A DNA stretch of 64,000 nucleotides. It comes from Candidatus Saccharimonadota bacterium. Its GTDB lineage: Bacteria > Patescibacteriota > Saccharimonadia > Saccharimonadales > Saccharimonadaceae. A model generated the notes under the pieces. The model saw only the letters and a program-made list of their open reading frames with translations. It did no database searches and was not told the DNA's origin. The stretch covers positions 62,001 to 126,000 of the forward strand of contig JAFQYG010000006.1 of assembly GCA_017406565.1 (NCBI GenBank), read 5' to 3'. This document shows, one piece after another, positions 1,000-41,688 of the stretch (position 1 is its first letter; every line of letters starts with the position of its first letter). A program made the position numbers and the translations under genes.

Positions 1000-3387
1000 A
1001 TGAATCGCTTAGTACTAATTGACGGAAAATCGGTTTTTTACCGAGGGTATTATGCTATGGGCGCCCTCAGTTTGGCCGATGGCACTCCTACAGGAGGTAT
1101 TTATGGTTTTGCTGCCATTTCTATGGAAATTGTCAGGAAACTAAAACCCACCAAAGTCGTAGTTGCGTGGGACTCCAAAAGTTCTACTTCTAAGCGTCGT
1201 GTTATCTATCCTGATTATAAAGCTGGTAGAGTTAAGCCAGGCGAAGACTTTTACGCTCAAATCCCACTCTTAAAAGAGCTCATAAAAGACCTTGGCTGGA
1301 ATTTCGTCGAGATTGATGATTATGAAGCTGACGATATTATTGGTACACTTTCGCAACAGGCCGACGAGGCAGGGAATTATGAAACTTTCATTATTTCCTC
1401 TGACCTCGATATGCTCCAAATTGTCGATGATAACACCCATATGTGGCGTATCCTCAAAGGTTTCACTAATATTGAACAGATTGACGTCAAAGAGCTAGAA
1501 GAAAAATATAACATTAAAAAATCTCAGTTTTTGGATCTGAAAGCTTTGAAGGGCGATTCGTCTGACAATATACCAGGTGTTCCAGGTATCGGTGAAAAAA
1601 CCGCTGCCAAACTCCTCAATGACTATGATAATCTAGATGGTATTTATAATAATATAGACAAAATCTCTGGCTCGACCAAAACAAAACTAGAAACTGGCAA
1701 AGAATCAGCCTATATGTCAAAAGAACTCGCCAAAATCATGTTCGACGCACCAGTCAAACTTAGTGAACTTATCGATTTTAATTTTGATCCAGACCAAATC
1801 ATTGCCGCTCTCAAAAAACTCGCCTTCAATTCTCTAATTCGAAAATATAGTTCCGGCGAATTAAAAAATAGTACTTCTAAAGAAACTCGAAATAATCATT
1901 TCGAGGTCGTACGCGACGACGGGAGCGAAATAGCGAGCGAGCCGAGAAACGATTATTCGAGTTTTTCAAAAGATACAATTATTGATTGGAACATCAAATC
2001 TTTAATGCATAATAACAAAGACATCGCAGAAAAGATTTTATCGGGCGCAAAGTTTTGGGACCTCGGCCAAGCCGCATTCTTATTAAATCCTCTTGCAAGG
2101 GAAGAACCTCACCTCTCAGTTCCCGAAGAAGAATATCAAAATCAGCTAAAAGAATTCGAGCAGTATCCCAGACTATATAATATATATACCGATTTTGACT
2201 TACCTCTTATCCCCATCCTTTATCAGATGGAAGAAGAAGGCATGTTAATAGACCGCGATTATTTCAAAAAATTACAATTAGAATTCACCGCCGAAGTTCA
2301 AAAACTTGAAAAAGAAATCTGCGAACTCGCCGGCACTAATTTTAATGTTAATTCACCTATACAATTGTCAGAAGTGCTGTTTACAAAGCTTCAACTCCCC
2401 ACCAAAGGTATCAAAAAGACCACTCGCGGTTATTCTACTGGCGCCAAAGAACTCGATAAACTAAAAGATTTCCATCCAATTATTTCCAAAATCATCGAAT
2501 ATCGTGAGGCGGCTAAACTTCTCAATACCTACATCATCCCTATCCCAAATTTAGCTGACCCATCCGGTCGTATTCATACCACTTTTACCCAAAACGTTAC
2601 TGCAACCGGACGACTTAGTTCCAAGGACCCGAATTTGCAAAATATCCCTGTCCGTACTGATGCTGGCAAACGTATTCGCACCGGTTTTATTGCTGACCAG
2701 GGCAAAGTGTTAGTTTCTGCTGATTATTCTCAGTTCGAACTTCGCCTTGCCGCTGTTCTTTCAGGTGACCAAGCTCTCATTGATGATTTCAACAATAACG
2801 TAGACATTCATACCAAGACAGCTTCCGAAGCTTTCAATGTCCCCATGGATGAAGTCACTAAGGAGCAGCGTCGCGCCGCTAAAGTTATCAATTTTGGTAT
2901 TTTATATGGCATGAGTGTCAAAGGTTTATCCGATGCCGCCAAAATGCCAATCGGAGAAGCCAAAGCATTTATTGACAATTATTTTAATCTTCGAGCACCA
3001 ATCAAACAAAAACTTGATGATATTTTAAGACAGGCCAAGGAAGTGGGCTTCGTTGAGACCTATTATGGTCGTCGACGCCCTACACCCGATGTCAAATCTC
3101 CTAACTTTGTTATTCGTGAAGCCGCCAAACGCGCTGCCGAAAACATGCCAATTCAAGGTACCGAAGCAGATCTCATGAAACGCGCTATGATTAAAGTTGC
3201 CTCCAAATTGCCAGATAACGCCAATCTCATCATGCAAGTCCACGACTCTTTAATCGTTGAATGTAACTTTTCTCAAAAAGCACAAGTCACAGCAATCCTT
3301 AAACAAGAAATGGAGTCCGTTGCCCCCGAACTCCCTATCAAATTAGCCGTAGATGTTACTACAGGACAAAATTGGGGAGAATTATAA
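1000..3387 (+). CDS. polA: DNA polymerase I (5'-3' exonuclease plus polymerase)
   Basis: The protein has 795 residues, shorter than the usual ~900. The N-terminal third is a FEN-like 5'-3' exonuclease (LIDGKSVFYRGYYA; acidic cluster EADDIIG; SSDLDMLQIV; GDSSDNIPGVPGIGEKTA). The middle region has no recognisable DxE motif of the 3'-5' proofreading domain, so proofreading is probably absent. Polymerase motifs are intact: TATGRLSS, motif A SADYSQFELR (Asp about 575), motif B RRAAKVINFGILYGM and motif C QVHDSL (His about 748). Motif C is unusual because the residue after HD is normally Glu. An in-frame palindromic element supplies residues about 295-322. A GGGAGG ribosome site precedes the ATG. 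Confidence 0.95.
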   Translation: MNRLVLIDGKSVFYRGYYAMGALSLADGTPTGGIYGFAAISMEIVRKLKPTKVVVAWDSKSSTSKRRVIYPDYKAGRVKPGEDFYAQIPLLKELIKDLGWNFVEIDDYEADDIIGTLSQQADEAGNYETFIISSDLDMLQIVDDNTHMWRILKGFTNIEQIDVKELEEKYNIKKSQFLDLKALKGDSSDNIPGVPGIGEKTAAKLLNDYDNLDGIYNNIDKISGSTKTKLETGKESAYMSKELAKIMFDAPVKLSELIDFNFDPDQIIAALKKLAFNSLIRKYSSGELKNSTSKETRNNHFEVVRDDGSEIASEPRNDYSSFSKDTIIDWNIKSLMHNNKDIAEKILSGAKFWDLGQAAFLLNPLAREEPHLSVPEEEYQNQLKEFEQYPRLYNIYTDFDLPLIPILYQMEEEGMLIDRDYFKKLQLEFTAEVQKLEKEICELAGTNFNVNSPIQLSEVLFTKLQLPTKGIKKTTRGYSTGAKELDKLKDFHPIISKIIEYREAAKLLNTYIIPIPNLADPSGRIHTTFTQNVTATGRLSSKDPNLQNIPVRTDAGKRIRTGFIADQGKVLVSADYSQFELRLAAVLSGDQALIDDFNNNVDIHTKTASEAFNVPMDEVTKEQRRAAKVINFGILYGMSVKGLSDAAKMPIGEAKAFIDNYFNLRAPIKQKLDDILRQAKEVGFVETYYGRRRPTPDVKSPNFVIREAAKRAAENMPIQGTEADLMKRAMIKVASKLPDNANLIMQVHDSLIVECNFSQKAQVTAILKQEMESVAPELPIKLAVDVTTGQNWGEL
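1883..1964. repeat. Palindromic element inserted in frame in polA
   Basis: Imperfect inverted arms at 1883-1905 and 1942-1964 (AAACTCGA(A)ATAATC.TTTC and its complement) enclose a GC-rich core with GACGACGGGAGCGA (1915-1928) and GCGAGCGAGCCGAG. The core is much more GC-rich than the surrounding AT-rich gene. It falls in the linker between exonuclease and polymerase regions and adds about 27 residues without a stop. A 13/14 core match is present in the ileS element at 16817-16830, and CCGAGAAA follows in both. Confidence 0.65.
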
Positions 3388-3399
3388 TCTCCCCAATTT
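3369..3399. terminator. Bidirectional terminator between polA and the convergent 3409 gene
   Basis: A perfect 12-bp stem (3369-3380 with 3388-3399) around a 7-nt loop overlaps the polA stop codon. It is flanked by A and T runs and lies between convergent genes, so it can serve both strands. Confidence 0.7.
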
Positions 3400-3408
3400 A
3401 TTCTTTAT

Positions 3409-3849
3409 TTATCGTGTTGCATAAGCAATGTTATGTTCCATTGCTTGAGTCTCTAACGCCACCAAGCGTTCTGCGTCATCAATCGAAGAATTAACACAGT
3501 GTTTGACGCGCGCTTTTTCCTCTGCTTTTTTAGCATCATTCCAGCGATCCAAAGTCCCTACTAAGTAACCAGTAATTCGGCGCAGTCTTTCAAATTTGCC
3601 CTCTTCAAACCATTCTGAATGTTCATCAAAATATTCCTTCATTGCTTTTTCGCCAGCTTTTTCACCAATTAATTTCATGCCTGCTTCTACTAAGCAGGAA
3701 ACATGCATATTTTCATATTGGTCAAATTCTGCCAAAGCTTCTTTCACTTCTTTTTCCGACACTTTTGCATATTGTGAAATTGATTTCACGAATCTTTTAA
3801 GGTCAAAGTTTTCAATTTCATTCGGGTTTCTATAGATAATTTTCTTCAT
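3409..3849 (-). CDS. Stand-alone glycyl-radical protein resembling the C-terminus of anaerobic ribonucleotide reductase (NrdD)
   Basis: The protein has 146 residues. Residues about 86-117 (FERLRRITGYLVG, then DRWNDAKKAEE and RVKH) match the C-terminal tail of class III ribonucleotide reductases, where the glycine of RxxGY is the radical-bearing residue; here it would be Gly94. The first 80 residues are mostly helical and only loosely recall an ATP-cone (FDLKRFVKSI). It has no Zn-binding CPxC motif and no catalytic core. The NrdD in this window lacks this tail, so the protein could supply the radical domain in trans, as GrcA/YfiD does for pyruvate formate-lyase. A consensus promoter with two NrdR-like boxes lies upstream. 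The family match is firm; the in-trans role is inference. Confidence 0.75.
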   Translation of the reverse strand: MKKIIYRNPNEIENFDLKRFVKSISQYAKVSEKEVKEALAEFDQYENMHVSCLVEAGMKLIGEKAGEKAMKEYFDEHSEWFEEGKFERLRRITGYLVGTLDRWNDAKKAEEKARVKHCVNSSIDDAERLVALETQAMEHNIAYATR

Positions 3850-3910
3850 GTTTTTCCTTTCTTTTGGGCTTCCTTTCCGCGCCCACCTTTTGTTATAAGC
3901 ATTACCTATA

Positions 3911-3968
3911 AAACATTATACCCCACATATAGTGTCTGTCAAGACCTTTTTCACGCTAAATATAGCGT
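3911..3968 (-). promoter_or_regulatory. Promoter with paired NrdR-like boxes for the glycyl-radical gene
   Basis: On the reverse strand TTGACA (3942-3937) and TATAAT (3920-3915) are separated by 16 bp. Two 16-bp palindromes related to the NrdR consensus ACACTATATATAGTGT lie at 3920-3935 (inside the spacer) and 3953-3968 (upstream of the -35). Each matches the consensus at about 13 of 16 positions. They start 33 bp apart, the same spacing as at nrdD. Confidence 0.75.
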
Positions 3969-4011
3969 TTTTCCACAATTTCGTCATTTTATGGTAGAAT
4001 AAAGAGTAATT

Positions 4012-4650
4012 ATGCCAGGATGGAATATTCATTTAGAGGCGGGCAATCGCCTTGCTAAAAAACTCAAATTTTCCGGCCAAAAGCGGAAAGAGTTTTTACT
4101 AGGCTGTATCCTTCCTGATATTAATAACGGCTATGCTAACAAAGTTAGAGTCAAAAAAGTCCATGAAGAGACTCACTACGCTTACGATCAGAAAAGCTCA
4201 CTTAACTTTTATGCCGAAAATCGTACTGAAATTTTAGCCAGAAATCCAATTTATTTAGGTTATCTTTTTCACCTTTATACCGATGGGTTTTTTAATTATG
4301 ATTTTTATCGCACCATCAAGCGTCACAAATTAGGAGAAGGCTTAGACCACAACGCAAAACGCAAAATCAAACACAACGATTTTTTTATTTATGACACTTG
4401 TTTTTACCACCATTTAAATCTTAAGCCAGAGGATTATAAAATACTCGCCGAAAAAGCAAATCAAATCAATACAGCCGAAATTGAACCAGAAGATATTGAA
4501 GAAGTCGAAAGAATTCTAACTGAAAGACGCTTTGTCGATGAGTATAAAGACAAAAAATACATCTTTTACAACAAAAAAAGATTAGATAATTTATTAGAAG
4601 ATATGGTCGAAAGTTTTACGAATGACTACGTGAGGGGGAATCATGCCTGA
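4012..4650 (+). CDS. Zinc-dependent phospholipase C-like protein
   Basis: The protein has 212 residues. The pattern WNIHLEAGNRL near the N-terminus, LGCILPDI at about residue 30, THY at about 53 and GYLFHLYTDGFF at about 85 fits the His/Asp metal-binding layout of the zinc-dependent phospholipase C domain found in many uncharacterised bacterial proteins. No signal peptide is visible, so it is likely cytoplasmic and its substrate is unknown. Its end overlaps the mutM start by 8 bases, so the two are translationally coupled. A TAGAAT box 15 nt upstream may be its promoter; the NrdR-like boxes of the divergent gene lie 44-92 bp upstream. Confidence 0.55.
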   Translation: MPGWNIHLEAGNRLAKKLKFSGQKRKEFLLGCILPDINNGYANKVRVKKVHEETHYAYDQKSSLNFYAENRTEILARNPIYLGYLFHLYTDGFFNYDFYRTIKRHKLGEGLDHNAKRKIKHNDFFIYDTCFYHHLNLKPEDYKILAEKANQINTAEIEPEDIEEVERILTERRFVDEYKDKKYIFYNKKRLDNLLEDMVESFTNDYVRGNHA

Positions 4651-5479
4651 ATTACCTGAAGTCGAAACTATTCGTCGTGGGCTAAGTAAATTTATCATTA
4701 AACAAAAACTTAAGAATACTCAAATCCTTTGTCAGAAATCTTTTATTGGTTCTCCTACTACTGGCACAGTTATCGATATTCGCCGTTTTGGCAAGGCCTT
4801 AATTATTGATTTAGATGATGGCAAGTCTTTAATCATTCATTTAAGAATGACTGGACAATTAATATATGATGGTAAAGATCGTTATGCCGCCGGACATCCC
4901 AGCGATAATTTTACTGCCAAACTCCCCAACAAACAGACTAGGGTAATTTTGGAATTTAATGAGGGCACACTTTATTTTAATGATCAACGTAAATTTGGTT
5001 TTATCAAAGTTGTCCCAACCTCAGAAGTCTTGAACGATTCTTTTATTAAAAAACTTGCTAAAGAACCCTGGGATATGACTCCGGAAGAGTTTTACCAAAA
5101 ACTTCAAAAACACCCCAAATCTTGTATTAAAGCCACTATTCTCGACCAAACAATTATTTGTGGACTTGGCAATATTTATGCTGATGAAGCACTATTTGCT
5201 TCGCATATTCATCCCGAACGCAAATCTGGTGATATATCTAAAAAAGAAGCCAAAGAATTACTCCAAGTCGCTCGTGATGTGATGGATAAGTCAATCGCTT
5301 CTGGTGGTTCTACCATGGCAACCTATGTTAAAGCTGACGGTACTAAAGGGGATTATCTTGAATTATTTGCTCAAGTTTTCCGTAGGGAAGGGCAACCTTG
5401 TCCATTTTGTGGCACTGAAATTATTAAAATAAGAGTAACCGGCCGAGGTACTCACATTTGTCCGAGGTGCCAGAAATGA
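4643..5479 (+). CDS. mutM: Formamidopyrimidine-DNA glycosylase
   Basis: The protein has 278 residues, a normal length. It begins with the catalytic MPELPEVETIRRGL (Pro2 nucleophile after Met removal, Glu3). HLRMTGQL and NDQRKFGF follow, then the H2TH region with CGLGNIYADEALF, and a C-terminal zinc finger with CPFCGTEI and CPRCQK. It excises oxidised purines such as 8-oxoguanine and cleaves the abasic site. The gene overlaps its neighbours at both ends (8 bases upstream, ATGA downstream), suggesting one transcript with the 4012 gene and holA. Confidence 0.95.
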   Translation: MPELPEVETIRRGLSKFIIKQKLKNTQILCQKSFIGSPTTGTVIDIRRFGKALIIDLDDGKSLIIHLRMTGQLIYDGKDRYAAGHPSDNFTAKLPNKQTRVILEFNEGTLYFNDQRKFGFIKVVPTSEVLNDSFIKKLAKEPWDMTPEEFYQKLQKHPKSCIKATILDQTIICGLGNIYADEALFASHIHPERKSGDISKKEAKELLQVARDVMDKSIASGGSTMATYVKADGTKGDYLELFAQVFRREGQPCPFCGTEIIKIRVTGRGTHICPRCQK

Positions 5480-13110: not shown

Positions 13111-13560
13111 ATGGAGCGAAATTTCAGAATCGGAGATAGCAAAGTTCTAGAAAGCCGCGAAACGGTAGATGGTACCATGATTCGCCGCCGTCGCGAATCT
13201 AGCGACGGTCACCGCTTTACTACTTATGAACGTATTGAGATGCCACCTCTTACAGTTAAAAAACGCAGTGGCAACAAAGAAATCTACGATCGTGACAAGC
13301 TATTACTTGCGGTTCGTCGTAGTGTCGGTAAGTTCTTCAATTCTGAACTCGAAGTTGAAGAAGTTGTCAATAAAGCTTCAGATATTTTATATAGTTATGG
13401 CACAGATGAAATTACCAGCAAACAAATCGGCGAGGCCGTCCTTGATGTCCTAGCCGAAGTAAATGAAGTTGCTTATGTTCGTTTCGCATCTGTCTTCCGC
13501 GAATTTAAAACGCTAGAAGACTTTGAAAATATTTTAAAAGAGCAAAAAAGGAAGAAATAA
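13111..13560 (+). CDS. nrdR: Transcriptional repressor NrdR with the zinc-ribbon cysteines missing
   Basis: The protein has 149 residues. It aligns with NrdR through SKVLESRETVDGTMIRRRRE, HRFTTYERIE, the ATP-cone (KKRSGNKEIYDRDKLLLAVR) and VAYVRFASVFREFK. In typical NrdR the N-terminus is CPFC and the RRRRE stretch is followed by C..C; here these are RNFRIG and SSDG. The protein contains no cysteine at all. NrdR represses ribonucleotide reductase genes when the ATP-cone binds ATP/dATP. Two NrdR-like box pairs in this window (3920-3968 and 38813-38861) are its likely targets, so it is probably functional despite lacking a zinc site. It lies directly after ftsZ. Confidence 0.85.
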   Translation: MERNFRIGDSKVLESRETVDGTMIRRRRESSDGHRFTTYERIEMPPLTVKKRSGNKEIYDRDKLLLAVRRSVGKFFNSELEVEEVVNKASDILYSYGTDEITSKQIGEAVLDVLAEVNEVAYVRFASVFREFKTLEDFENILKEQKRKK

Positions 13561-13563
13561 TCT

Positions 13564-38807: not shown

Positions 38808-38861
38808 TTGCATTTCCACATTTAGTGTCGTATACTAGGTTATAGACACTAAATGTAGCGT
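38808..38861 (+). promoter_or_regulatory. nrdD promoter with paired NrdR-like boxes
   Basis: TTGCAT (38808-38813) and TATACT (38831-38836) are spaced 17 bp. NrdR-like palindromes lie at 38813-38828 (in the spacer) and 38846-38861 (downstream of the start site), 33 bp apart. The inner halves form a perfect 12-bp inverted repeat (ACATTTAGTGTC and its complement). The second box matches ACACTATATATAGTGT at about 13 of 16 positions. Confidence 0.8.
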
Positions 38862-38897: not shown

Positions 38898-41123
38898 ATG
38901 TTCAAAAGAATCGTCAAAAGAGACGGCAAAATCGTAAAATTTGATCCAGAAAAAATTACCGAAGCTATCGCTAAGGCTGGTCTTGCCACTGAAGAGTTCA
39001 AGTATGATCGCGCTAAAGCGTTGACCGATAAAGTAATCAAGCGTGCTGATGAAGAAATCACTGCTCGCACCCCCAACGTTGAACAAATCCAAGATATTGT
39101 CGAAGAAGTTTTGATGGAGTCTAGCTTTAAAAAGACTGCACGTTCCTATATTCAATATCGCCAAGAACGTTCACGTCGACGTGAAGCCAAGTCTGATCTC
39201 ATGATGATTTATCGCACCATTTCTCATGCTGATGCTTCTGAAGACTCTGATGTTAAGCGTTCTAACGCCAACGTTGACGGCAACTCTGCTATGGGCAAAA
39301 TGCTCCAATTTGGCGCCGAAGGTTCCAAAGTATTTGCTAAATCTCTGATGCTTCGGCCTGACATTGCTGCTGCTCATGATAATGGTGATATTCATATCCA
39401 TGACCTAGATTTCTACGCTACTGGTACTTTGACTTGTTGTCAGTCCGATCCATTTGTCCTCTTTGAAAATGGTGGTTTTAATACTGGTCACGGTCATCTC
39501 CGTACCCCGAATTCTATTGGTTCTTATGGCGCTCTTGCCGCAATTTTACTCCAAGCCAACCAGAATGAGCAACACGGTGGTCAGTCTATTCCAAATTTTG
39601 ACTATGCTATGGCTCCTGGGGTTAATAAATCTTTTAGAAAAGCTTTGAAGCGCAACCTCAAAAAATACAACAAGTTTACTGGCAAAAAACTTGATCTCGA
39701 TATCAAGGATACTTATGAATATGGTGACGATGATAAGCTCAAAAAAGCCAAATGGCCTAAAGAAATTATCGAGGCTTCCAACGAAGATACTGAGCGCGAG
39801 ACTCTCCAAGCTATGGAAGGTTTTGTCCATAATCTCAACACTATGCATTCCCGTGCCGGTGCTCAGGTGCCATTTACATCCATTAACTTTGGCACCGACA
39901 CTACTCCAGCCGGTCGCCTTGTCTCTCTAGATCTACTTCAAGCCACTGAAAACGGTCTTGGTAAAGGCGAAACTCCAATTTTCCCGATCAGTATTTTGAA
40001 AGTCAAAGAGGGAATCAATTATAATCCCGAGGATCCTAACTACGATATTTTCAAACGTTCCATGGAAGTTTCTGCCAAGCGTCTTTTCCCGAATTTCTGC
40101 TTCATAGATGCTCCATACAATCTCAAATATTACAAAAAAGGCGATTATCGTACCGAAATTGCCACCATGGGCTGCCGTACACGTGTCTTCTCTTCAGTTT
40201 TTCCAGAGTCTGATGGCATCGTTACTGGTCGTGGTAATCTCTCATTCACCACTGTCAATCTCGTCCGTATCGGCATCAAACACGGAATTTGCTTGAAGGA
40301 GCGTAAAGAAGCTGACTGGGAAGGCTTCTACAAAGAACTCGACGAAAAAATGGATCTCGTCCGCGATGAGCTTCTCGAACGCTTTGACTTCCAAGCCAAC
40401 CAACACGTTCGTAACTTCCCATTCTTAATGGGGCAAGGGAACTGGTTTGGTTCTGAAAAACTCGGCCCTAATGATACTCTAAGAGACGTGATTAAACATG
40501 GTACTTTGTCTATTGGCTTCATCGGTCTAGCTGAAACACTCGTTGCGATGACTGGCAAACACCATGGCGAAGATGAAGATGCGCGTGATCTTGGCCTCGA
40601 TATCATCACTCACATGCGTGAAAAATGTGACGAATATAGTAAAAAGCACAAATTGAATTTCAGTCTCCTTGCTACTCCAGCTGAAGGTATCGCTGGTCGC
40701 TTTACTAAGATTGATCGCAAAGAATTCGGTAAAATCAAAGGCGTTACCGACAGGGAATTCTACACCAACTCATTCCACGTACCTGTCTATTATCCAATTA
40801 GTGCTTTTGAAAAAATTGAGATTGAGGCCCCTTACCACAATCTCTGTAACGCCGGCCACATCACCTACATCGAATTAGACGGTGATCCATCTCAAAATAT
40901 TGCCGCCTTTGAGTCCGTTATTCGCAAGATGCACGACGAAGGTATCGGTTATGGTTCTATTAACCATCCAGTTGATCGCGATCCAGTCTGTGGATTCTCA
41001 GGCATCATCACTGGTGACCGTTGTCCGCACTGTGGTCGTCTTGAAGGTGATCTTCCGTTCGAAAAAGTTTGCGACTGTGTTAATTGCGATTGCGCAGACT
41101 GCAGCTGCACAAAAAAAGATTAA
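38898..41123 (+). CDS. nrdD: Anaerobic ribonucleoside-triphosphate reductase, large protein without the glycyl-radical tail
   Basis: The protein is 741 residues from ATG 38898 (AAGGAGG 5 nt upstream). An ATP-cone (IVKRDGKIVKFDPEKITEAI) starts the protein. The catalytic region has GTLTCCQSDPFVLFENGG and ATMGCRTRVFSSV (Cys about 426). The end has HPVDRDPVCGFSGI and CPHCGRLEGDLPFE, the normal approach to the tail. Instead of the usual RRITGYLxG...RVKH glycyl-radical segment it closes with VCDCVNCDCADCSCTKKD. No such tail is found in any frame downstream. The missing segment is encoded at 3409-3849. It makes deoxyribonucleotides, with nrdG next door as activase. Confidence 0.92.
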   Translation: MFKRIVKRDGKIVKFDPEKITEAIAKAGLATEEFKYDRAKALTDKVIKRADEEITARTPNVEQIQDIVEEVLMESSFKKTARSYIQYRQERSRRREAKSDLMMIYRTISHADASEDSDVKRSNANVDGNSAMGKMLQFGAEGSKVFAKSLMLRPDIAAAHDNGDIHIHDLDFYATGTLTCCQSDPFVLFENGGFNTGHGHLRTPNSIGSYGALAAILLQANQNEQHGGQSIPNFDYAMAPGVNKSFRKALKRNLKKYNKFTGKKLDLDIKDTYEYGDDDKLKKAKWPKEIIEASNEDTERETLQAMEGFVHNLNTMHSRAGAQVPFTSINFGTDTTPAGRLVSLDLLQATENGLGKGETPIFPISILKVKEGINYNPEDPNYDIFKRSMEVSAKRLFPNFCFIDAPYNLKYYKKGDYRTEIATMGCRTRVFSSVFPESDGIVTGRGNLSFTTVNLVRIGIKHGICLKERKEADWEGFYKELDEKMDLVRDELLERFDFQANQHVRNFPFLMGQGNWFGSEKLGPNDTLRDVIKHGTLSIGFIGLAETLVAMTGKHHGEDEDARDLGLDIITHMREKCDEYSKKHKLNFSLLATPAEGIAGRFTKIDRKEFGKIKGVTDREFYTNSFHVPVYYPISAFEKIEIEAPYHNLCNAGHITYIELDGDPSQNIAAFESVIRKMHDEGIGYGSINHPVDRDPVCGFSGIITGDRCPHCGRLEGDLPFEKVCDCVNCDCADCSCTKKD

Positions 41124-41136
41124 ATTGGAAACAATA

Positions 41137-41688
41137 ATGACTGATTGGAAAAAAATATCACTAGAAAAACTCGCTAAGCAACTTGAGACACCGGAAGGCT
41201 ATATTCGCCTTTCGGCTCCTCTCGAACACGATAATATCGTAAACGGCGATGGTCTTAGAGTAGTTTTGTGGACTCAAGGTTGTCCTAACCATTGTAAAGG
41301 TTGCCAAAATCCTGAAACTTGGGACTACAAAGCTGGTTATCTTGCTAAAATTGATGATGTCAAACAAGAATTACGTCAATTCCGCGGGCAGGCTGGTCTT
41401 ACATTCTGTGGTGGGGAACCATTCGTTCAAGCTAAAGCTTGCAAGGAAATTGCTGATTGGTGCCGTCAAGAAATGGGTTGGAATGTTTGGAGCTTCTCTG
41501 GTTTTACCTACGAAGTCATTAAAGAATACGGTAAAGGACCTTGGGATTTCCTTAAATCTCTTGATGCTCTTATTGATGGACCGTTCATTTTGAGTCAACG
41601 TGACCTAAGCCTTAGATTTCGTGGCTCTAAAAATCAACGTTTATTACATTTAAAACAAGGCAAGGGTGAGATTTTGTCAATAGAATAA
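41137..41688 (+). CDS. nrdG: Anaerobic ribonucleotide reductase activating protein
   Basis: The protein is 183 residues from ATG 41137. The radical SAM cluster motif is CPNHCKGCQNPETW (CxxxCxxC), and LTFCGGEPF (GGE-type SAM-binding motif) follows. It would generate the glycyl radical, here probably on the separate small protein rather than on NrdD itself. It follows nrdD after 13 nt and should share its NrdR-controlled promoter. A longer frame upstream lies within nrdD and is rejected. Confidence 0.92.
   Translation: MTDWKKISLEKLAKQLETPEGYIRLSAPLEHDNIVNGDGLRVVLWTQGCPNHCKGCQNPETWDYKAGYLAKIDDVKQELRQFRGQAGLTFCGGEPFVQAKACKEIADWCRQEMGWNVWSFSGFTYEVIKEYGKGPWDFLKSLDALIDGPFILSQRDLSLRFRGSKNQRLLHLKQGKGEILSIE

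Follow-up and report, generated by a model that had tools for sequence, protein, structure and literature searches.

A probable two-gene class III ribonucleotide reductase of rumen Saccharibacteria with the glycyl-radical loop encoded apart from NrdD

Where would an anaerobic ribonucleotide reductase (RNR) carry its radical, if the catalytic polypeptide ends ahead of the glycyl-radical loop? To our knowledge, class III RNRs are known with the glycyl radical on the catalytic chain. The question is raised by an nrdD gene in a 64,000-nucleotide stretch (the window) from a Candidatus Saccharimonadota bacterium. A first-pass annotation of this DNA had stated that NrdD ends without a glycyl-radical segment and that none is present in any frame before nrdG, which was confirmed. 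A second gene, about 35 kb from nrdD, encodes the segment absent from NrdD (RRITGYLVGTLDRWND...), and it is highly probable, judging from the sequences, that both products form a split class III (anaerobic) RNR in rumen Saccharibacteria, in which the second product supplies the glycyl radical in trans.

Division of class III domains between two genes

The protein-coding features concerned are the following:

38898-41123, plus strand: nrdD body, comprising ATP-cone, catalytic barrel and zinc-site region, without glycyl-radical loop
38898-39173, plus strand: NrdD ATP-cone, residues 1-92, KRDG kept (PF03477, 9.2e-22, residues 4-92)
39264-39272, plus strand: NAN flap, residues 123-125, corresponding to the NxN flap motif of PcNrdD
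40173-40175, plus strand: active-site Cys426 within MGCRTRV (MG-C-RTRV in 104 of 105 NrdDs)
41064-41120, plus strand: species-specific Cys-rich tail of NrdD, residues 723-741, six Cys; not conserved, model pLDDT about 30-45
41137-41688, plus strand: nrdG, radical SAM activase (TIGR02491, 131.3 bits, cut-off 126.1)
3409-3849, minus strand: stand-alone glycyl-radical protein, 146 aa, with predicted ATP-cone fold and NrdD-type glycyl-radical loop
3496-3606, minus strand: glycyl-radical segment of the small protein, residues 82-118, with FERLRRITGYLVGTLDRWNDAKKAEEKARVKHC (PRK07111 positions 708-744 of 746)
3568-3570, minus strand: codon of Gly94, the predicted radical glycine (= Gly711 of PcNrdD; phmmer alignment to 8p23_A)
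3610-3849, minus strand: N-terminal ATP-cone-like domain of the small protein, residues 1-80, KRDG lost (AF2 model)

The nrdD open reading frame is real (ATG at 38898, stop codon at 41121-41123), and its 741-aa product is a class III RNR according to PF13597 (1.5e-179) and NCBIfam PRK07111 (1018.6 bits), NrdD residues 1-714 spanning positions 1-709 of the latter profile. The catalytic domain and the active-site Cys are thus present (PF13597, PRK07111, MGCRTRV), and the earlier statements that the MGCRTRV region is conserved and that nrdG is adjacent were borne out (Cys426; nrdG start at 41137), NrdG scoring above the TIGR02491 cut-off. The chain stops after the zinc-site region, its C-terminus reading ...CPHCGRLEGDLPFEKVCDCVNCDCADCSCTKKD (also given as EKVCDCVNCDCADCSCTKKD). 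A glycyl-radical loop on the same polypeptide, as expected of a class III RNR, is missing from NrdD and resides on the 3409-3849 gene; therefore, the set of class III parts is complete in the two-gene pair but not in the single chain. Remnants of RITGY, GYLVG or RWND were absent from all frames within 700 bp downstream of 36 out of 36 truncated NrdDs. The zinc-site region (40983-41034, NrdD residues 695-712) contains Cys698, Cys709 and Cys712; the first of the usual four zinc-site Cys is Asp695, an Asp also kept in fused relatives. A structure model of the 741-aa NrdD (pLDDT 72), in which flap, finger loop and tail are poorly predicted, was given no weight in the argument.

The small protein aligns to NrdD of Prevotella copri (8p23_A) across residues 707-739, a span containing the radical Gly711. 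The two proteins are complementary, in that the PRK07111 profile is tiled almost exactly (NrdD 1-709, small protein 708-744, of 746), and both genes are present as single copies in the 815-kb genome. The link between NrdD and the 3409 protein that the first-pass annotation had proposed for testing is strongly supported, since the latter carries exactly the missing segment. Among 59 stand-alone homologues FERLRRITGYLVG, Arg102, RVKH and other positions are invariant, and the radical segment is almost invariant; with a dN/dS of about 0.08 (38 pairs with usable, unsaturated dS), the gene is under strong purifying selection. With E values up to 1 allowed, the small protein did not match the PFL-type glycyl-radical domain (PF01228) but NRDD.

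An AlphaFold model of the small protein built from 59 sequences (pLDDT 69.5; about 80 for residues 1-80, below 50 for the radical loop) has the order b-b-a-a-b-a-a in residues 1-80, i.e., the strand-helix order of the three-strand, four-helix ATP-cone fold, which is hence present by prediction. All top Foldseek matches of the model are ATP-cone proteins (E above 0.01), and VIA-align yielded Z 9.4 to the cone of E. coli NrdR (9gex_C; 77 residues, 2.1 A) and Z 7.8 to the class III cone of S. thermophilus (9d3x_A), the next unrelated protein scoring 4.8. PF03477 was not matched in the small protein, hhalign to the ATP-cone gave a probability of 6 %, and IIYRNPNEIENFD stands where KRDG would be. 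The domain is therefore named ATP-cone-like rather than ATP-cone, and nucleotide binding by the small protein is doubtful, as a sequence-level cone signal and KRDG are both missing. Homology of this half to the ATP-cone at the sequence level is not supported by the hhalign value; the support comes from the predicted fold. The layout of the small protein resembles NrdD minus its barrel, from which one may infer such an origin.

As to the Cys-rich tail, the first-pass annotation had counted seven Cys in the last 20 residues, where there are six, and had taken the tail as suggestive of a site adapted to docking or metal binding. It is very unlikely that the tail takes over, in this manner, what the glycyl-radical segment does. 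Its six Cys and the CxC found in 48 of 66 truncated tails would agree with a metal site, whereas the number of Cys beyond the zinc site across these 66 tails (two in 55, one in 5, none in 5, six in 1), as well as their varying length and sequence, speak against it: the tail is not conserved, it is Cys-free in some split NrdDs, and six Cys occur in this genome only. Moreover, the nearest relative (NrdD 99 % identical) has a C-terminus reading FEKVCNCAKGE, with CNC only, the tail is poorly modelled, and a Cys tail alone cannot stand in for the radical glycine. A conserved metal site was accordingly rejected; the tail is a lineage-specific extension, any role of which is secondary.

Shared promoter sites and distribution among relatives

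The following sites and a candidate regulator were recognized in the window:

38813-38828, plus strand: NrdR-box-like site 1 upstream of nrdD, TTTCCACATTTAGTGT, 10/16 (weak)
38846-38861, plus strand: NrdR-box-like site 2 upstream of nrdD, ACACTAAATGTAGCGT, 13/16, 33 bp from site 1
3953-3968, minus strand: NrdR-box-like site 1 upstream of the small gene, ACGCTATATTTAGCGT, 13/16
3920-3935, minus strand: NrdR-box-like site 2 upstream of the small gene, ACACTATATGTGGGGT, 13/16, 33 bp from site 1
13111-13563, plus strand: NrdR homologue, candidate regulator of both genes (TIGR00244, 4.4e-34, below cut-off; PF03477, PF22811)

Both genes are preceded by putative tandem boxes as in an NrdR regulon, with a spacing of 33 bp (32 in some relatives). 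Sites were scored against the NrdR box consensus. Pair scores of at least 21/32, the 99th percentile of random window segments being 21, were obtained upstream of nrdD in 30 of 32 split genomes and upstream of the small gene in 59 of 65. These shared promoter sites may point to co-regulation of nrdD and the small gene; the function of the boxes is uncertain, since the NrdR present here is devoid of the zinc-ribbon cysteines. The gene of this NrdR homologue adjoins ftsZ, and its ATP-cone is kept; NrdR matches in most of the genus begin at about profile position 10.

NrdD was found in 59 out of 60 genomes of the genus, which had been taken regardless of this trait. The small gene accompanies truncated NrdD in 34 of 35 genomes versus fused NrdD in 7 of 24 (Fisher P = 1.9e-8). 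Truncated NrdD without detected small gene occurs in G051, G364 and G398 (83-92 % complete). All 36 truncated NrdDs, including that of Candidatus Nanosyncoccus alces (G001/L199), form one clade (SH-aLRT 99; tree of NrdD bodies, 104 rows). Class I/II RNRs (PF02867) were not detected in 36 genomes of the genus (one family model, draft genomes), as opposed to 23 of the 24 genomes representing other genera of the order; NrdD and the small protein therefore probably represent the only RNR. In one genome (G020, 96 % complete) NrdR was detected, while NrdD, the small gene and a PF02867 RNR were not; this organism may be without RNR or the assembly may be incomplete.

The latter genome would be in line with an ongoing loss of NrdD, in which host deoxynucleosides are scavenged and the small protein has another role, as cells may be able to live without a detected RNR. 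Such a loss is nevertheless improbable for the split clade: its NrdD bodies are mostly 88-93 % identical, with active site and NrdG retained, and the small gene displays the low dN/dS, the invariant radical-loop residues and the shared promoter sites described above. The earlier judgement that the altered C-terminus does not reflect decay gains support from the single 36-genome clade, from strong purifying selection on the partner gene and from the common promoter sites. Restricting the small protein to the repair of oxygen-cleaved NrdD, with truncated NrdD using another radical, would suit genomes with fused NrdD plus a spare loop, and non-glycyl aminoacyl radicals do occur in relatives of glycyl-radical enzymes (GREs) (PMC11528403); it is hardly conceivable for the split clade, which has no other glycyl-radical domain (GRD) to repair and whose small protein retains a complete radical loop. 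A sequencing, assembly or frameshift artefact concealing the segment, e.g., by hiding RRITGYL, on which the first-pass annotation had made its reading depend, has virtually no probability left even with most genomes being metagenome-assembled, because independent genomes share the truncation (36 NrdDs, one clade including Candidatus Nanosyncoccus alces) and no GRD remnant lies downstream in any frame (36/36).

A split class III RNR is the preferred reading. Fused-only, fused-plus-separate and split-only genomes are all found within one family, and the truncated clade is nested among lineages with fused and separate copies and, more deeply, among fused-only lineages. The coexistence of these states suggests, as the simplest reading, an old spare part that turned obligatory once; the order of gains and losses is derived from trees in which some nodes have modest support. 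The small gene would most likely have started as a spare beside fused NrdD, as YfiD/GrcA for pyruvate formate-lyase (PFL), and would have become obligatory after loss of the fused copy from one lineage. A long, well-supported branch divides the stand-alone proteins of split genomes from those of fused-plus-separate genomes, and separate acquisitions of the gene by both groups are possible. In split genomes, the small gene is located between polA and fpg (window 1000-5479), adjoining fpg in 39 and polA in 31 of 40 cases, versus 0 of 27 in the fused-plus-spare genomes, where it is located elsewhere; because of these differing neighbourhoods, gene location does not tie the two groups. Two stand-alone radical-loop genes each are present in G034, G370 and G423.

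Proposed mechanism and comparison with known systems

In the established mechanism, NrdG acts on a mobile GRD, whose glycine receives the radical before the domain moves back into the barrel (PMC12662201). In case of the split pair, NrdD would contribute the ATP-cone, the catalytic barrel, the thiyl-radical Cys426 and the zinc-site region, and would associate physically with the 146-aa protein, the latter contributing the glycyl-radical loop in trans by docking its FERLRRITGYLVG loop into the opening of the barrel. The hydrogen of Gly94 in the small protein would be taken by NrdG (41137-41688), and the glycyl radical formed on it would then yield the Cys426 thiyl radical required for catalysis, as in ordinary NrdD. 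The NxN flap motif was reported for PcNrdD, in which Tyr712, Arg719, this flap and Glu581 contact each other (PMC11226230); in the split pair, the small protein keeps the Tyr and Arg of this contact, and NrdD keeps the NxN flap and the Glu. The predicted ATP-cone-like domain probably serves in docking or gating. If oxygen cuts the chain at the glycine, only the 16-kDa subunit would be lost, and it could be replaced. Oxygen-cleaved PFL is completed in trans by YfiD (PMC8683613). Overall, the pair looks like a natural two-part class III RNR with a replaceable radical cartridge.

PcNrdD (P. copri, 8p23) and StNrdD (S. thermophilus, 9d3x) share with the split pair the NrdD body, ATP-cone, NxN flap, active-site Cys, NrdG activase and glycyl-radical loop sequence; their radical loop forms the C-terminus of the same chain, whereas it is a separate gene product here. 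YfiD/GrcA and T4 Y06I (PMC8683613) are likewise small, carry a C-terminal GRD, complete a GRE without its own and overlap the large protein's end by a few residues. However, they are PFL-type, while the small protein is NrdD-type, and YfiD/GrcA rescues a damaged fused enzyme, while split NrdD appears to have no other radical loop. Restoration of a GRE without working radical domain in the manner of YfiD/GrcA would be compatible with the observed co-occurrence pattern. YfiD/GrcA and T4 Y06I are the only validated spare parts, and others were considered possible for other GREs by the authors (PMC8683613); the split pair, if true, would answer their question whether GREs other than PFL have spare parts.

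The catalytic polypeptide of an RNR is also spread over two genes in case of NrdJa/NrdJb of Pseudomonas aeruginosa (PMC4520616), a class II, B12-dependent enzyme unlike the class III pair. Phage nrdD is likewise found in more than one coding region (PMC3653736); in the passages considered, the breaks are ascribed to introns, inteins, homing endonucleases or fragmentation, and a stand-alone glycyl-radical subunit is not described. Among the open-licence papers searched, none was found to describe a split NrdD whose glycyl-radical part is a protein of its own.

If the proposal is true, the only detected RNR of this lineage has its radical on another protein, which would show that a subunit of its own can serve as radical domain. 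The pair would then lend itself to clean tests, since one could supply, omit or mutate the radical domain with the catalytic chain untouched, and intermediate stages of this evolution are still represented among living relatives.

Similar arrangements in viruses, Clostridia and other CPR

As a tentative extension, conceivable rather than probable, the ATP-cone-like subunit could act as a replaceable and possibly gated cartridge bearing the catalytic glycyl radical, the family could have preserved the path from fused via fused-plus-spare to obligate split, and the stand-alone NrdD-type loops of many viruses may complete or rescue host NrdD. These viral loops suggest a phenomenon of wider occurrence that has so far surfaced only in the form of partial matches to NrdD models; for stand-alone radical-loop proteins, NCBIfam and Pfam contain no model beyond the C-terminal end of NrdD. 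Two scans of viral contigs retrieved 91 distinct ORFs for stand-alone radical loops of the NrdD type, with a median open frame of 99 aa, a number that is not a frequency, since the scans were seeded with stand-alone queries; at least one of them (L277) corresponds to an exon-like fragment of an NrdD that is interrupted. The ATP-cone-like half is also present at five viral loci (L255-L259), which comprise four distinct sequences; here, small-protein homologues including this half (4998-5444) lie on viral contigs with no NrdD nearby. Upstream of the viral cone-GRD genes, no NrdR-box pairs above background were found.

Truncated NrdD bodies beside or near a mini-GRD are present at seven viral loci (two nearly identical). 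Matches in phage and plasmid records are mostly partial; NrdD is fused in L334, and L335 carries the annotation of a full-length gene. A Subdoligranulum replicon record (L333, OY725842.1) encodes truncated NrdD followed by a mini-GRD of 50-54 aa, which suggests that NrdD splits also occur in Clostridia. Two genomes from other CPR families (L425, L426) encode a different NrdD type ending at the zinc site, followed by a mini-GRD of ~50 aa and a radical SAM gene.
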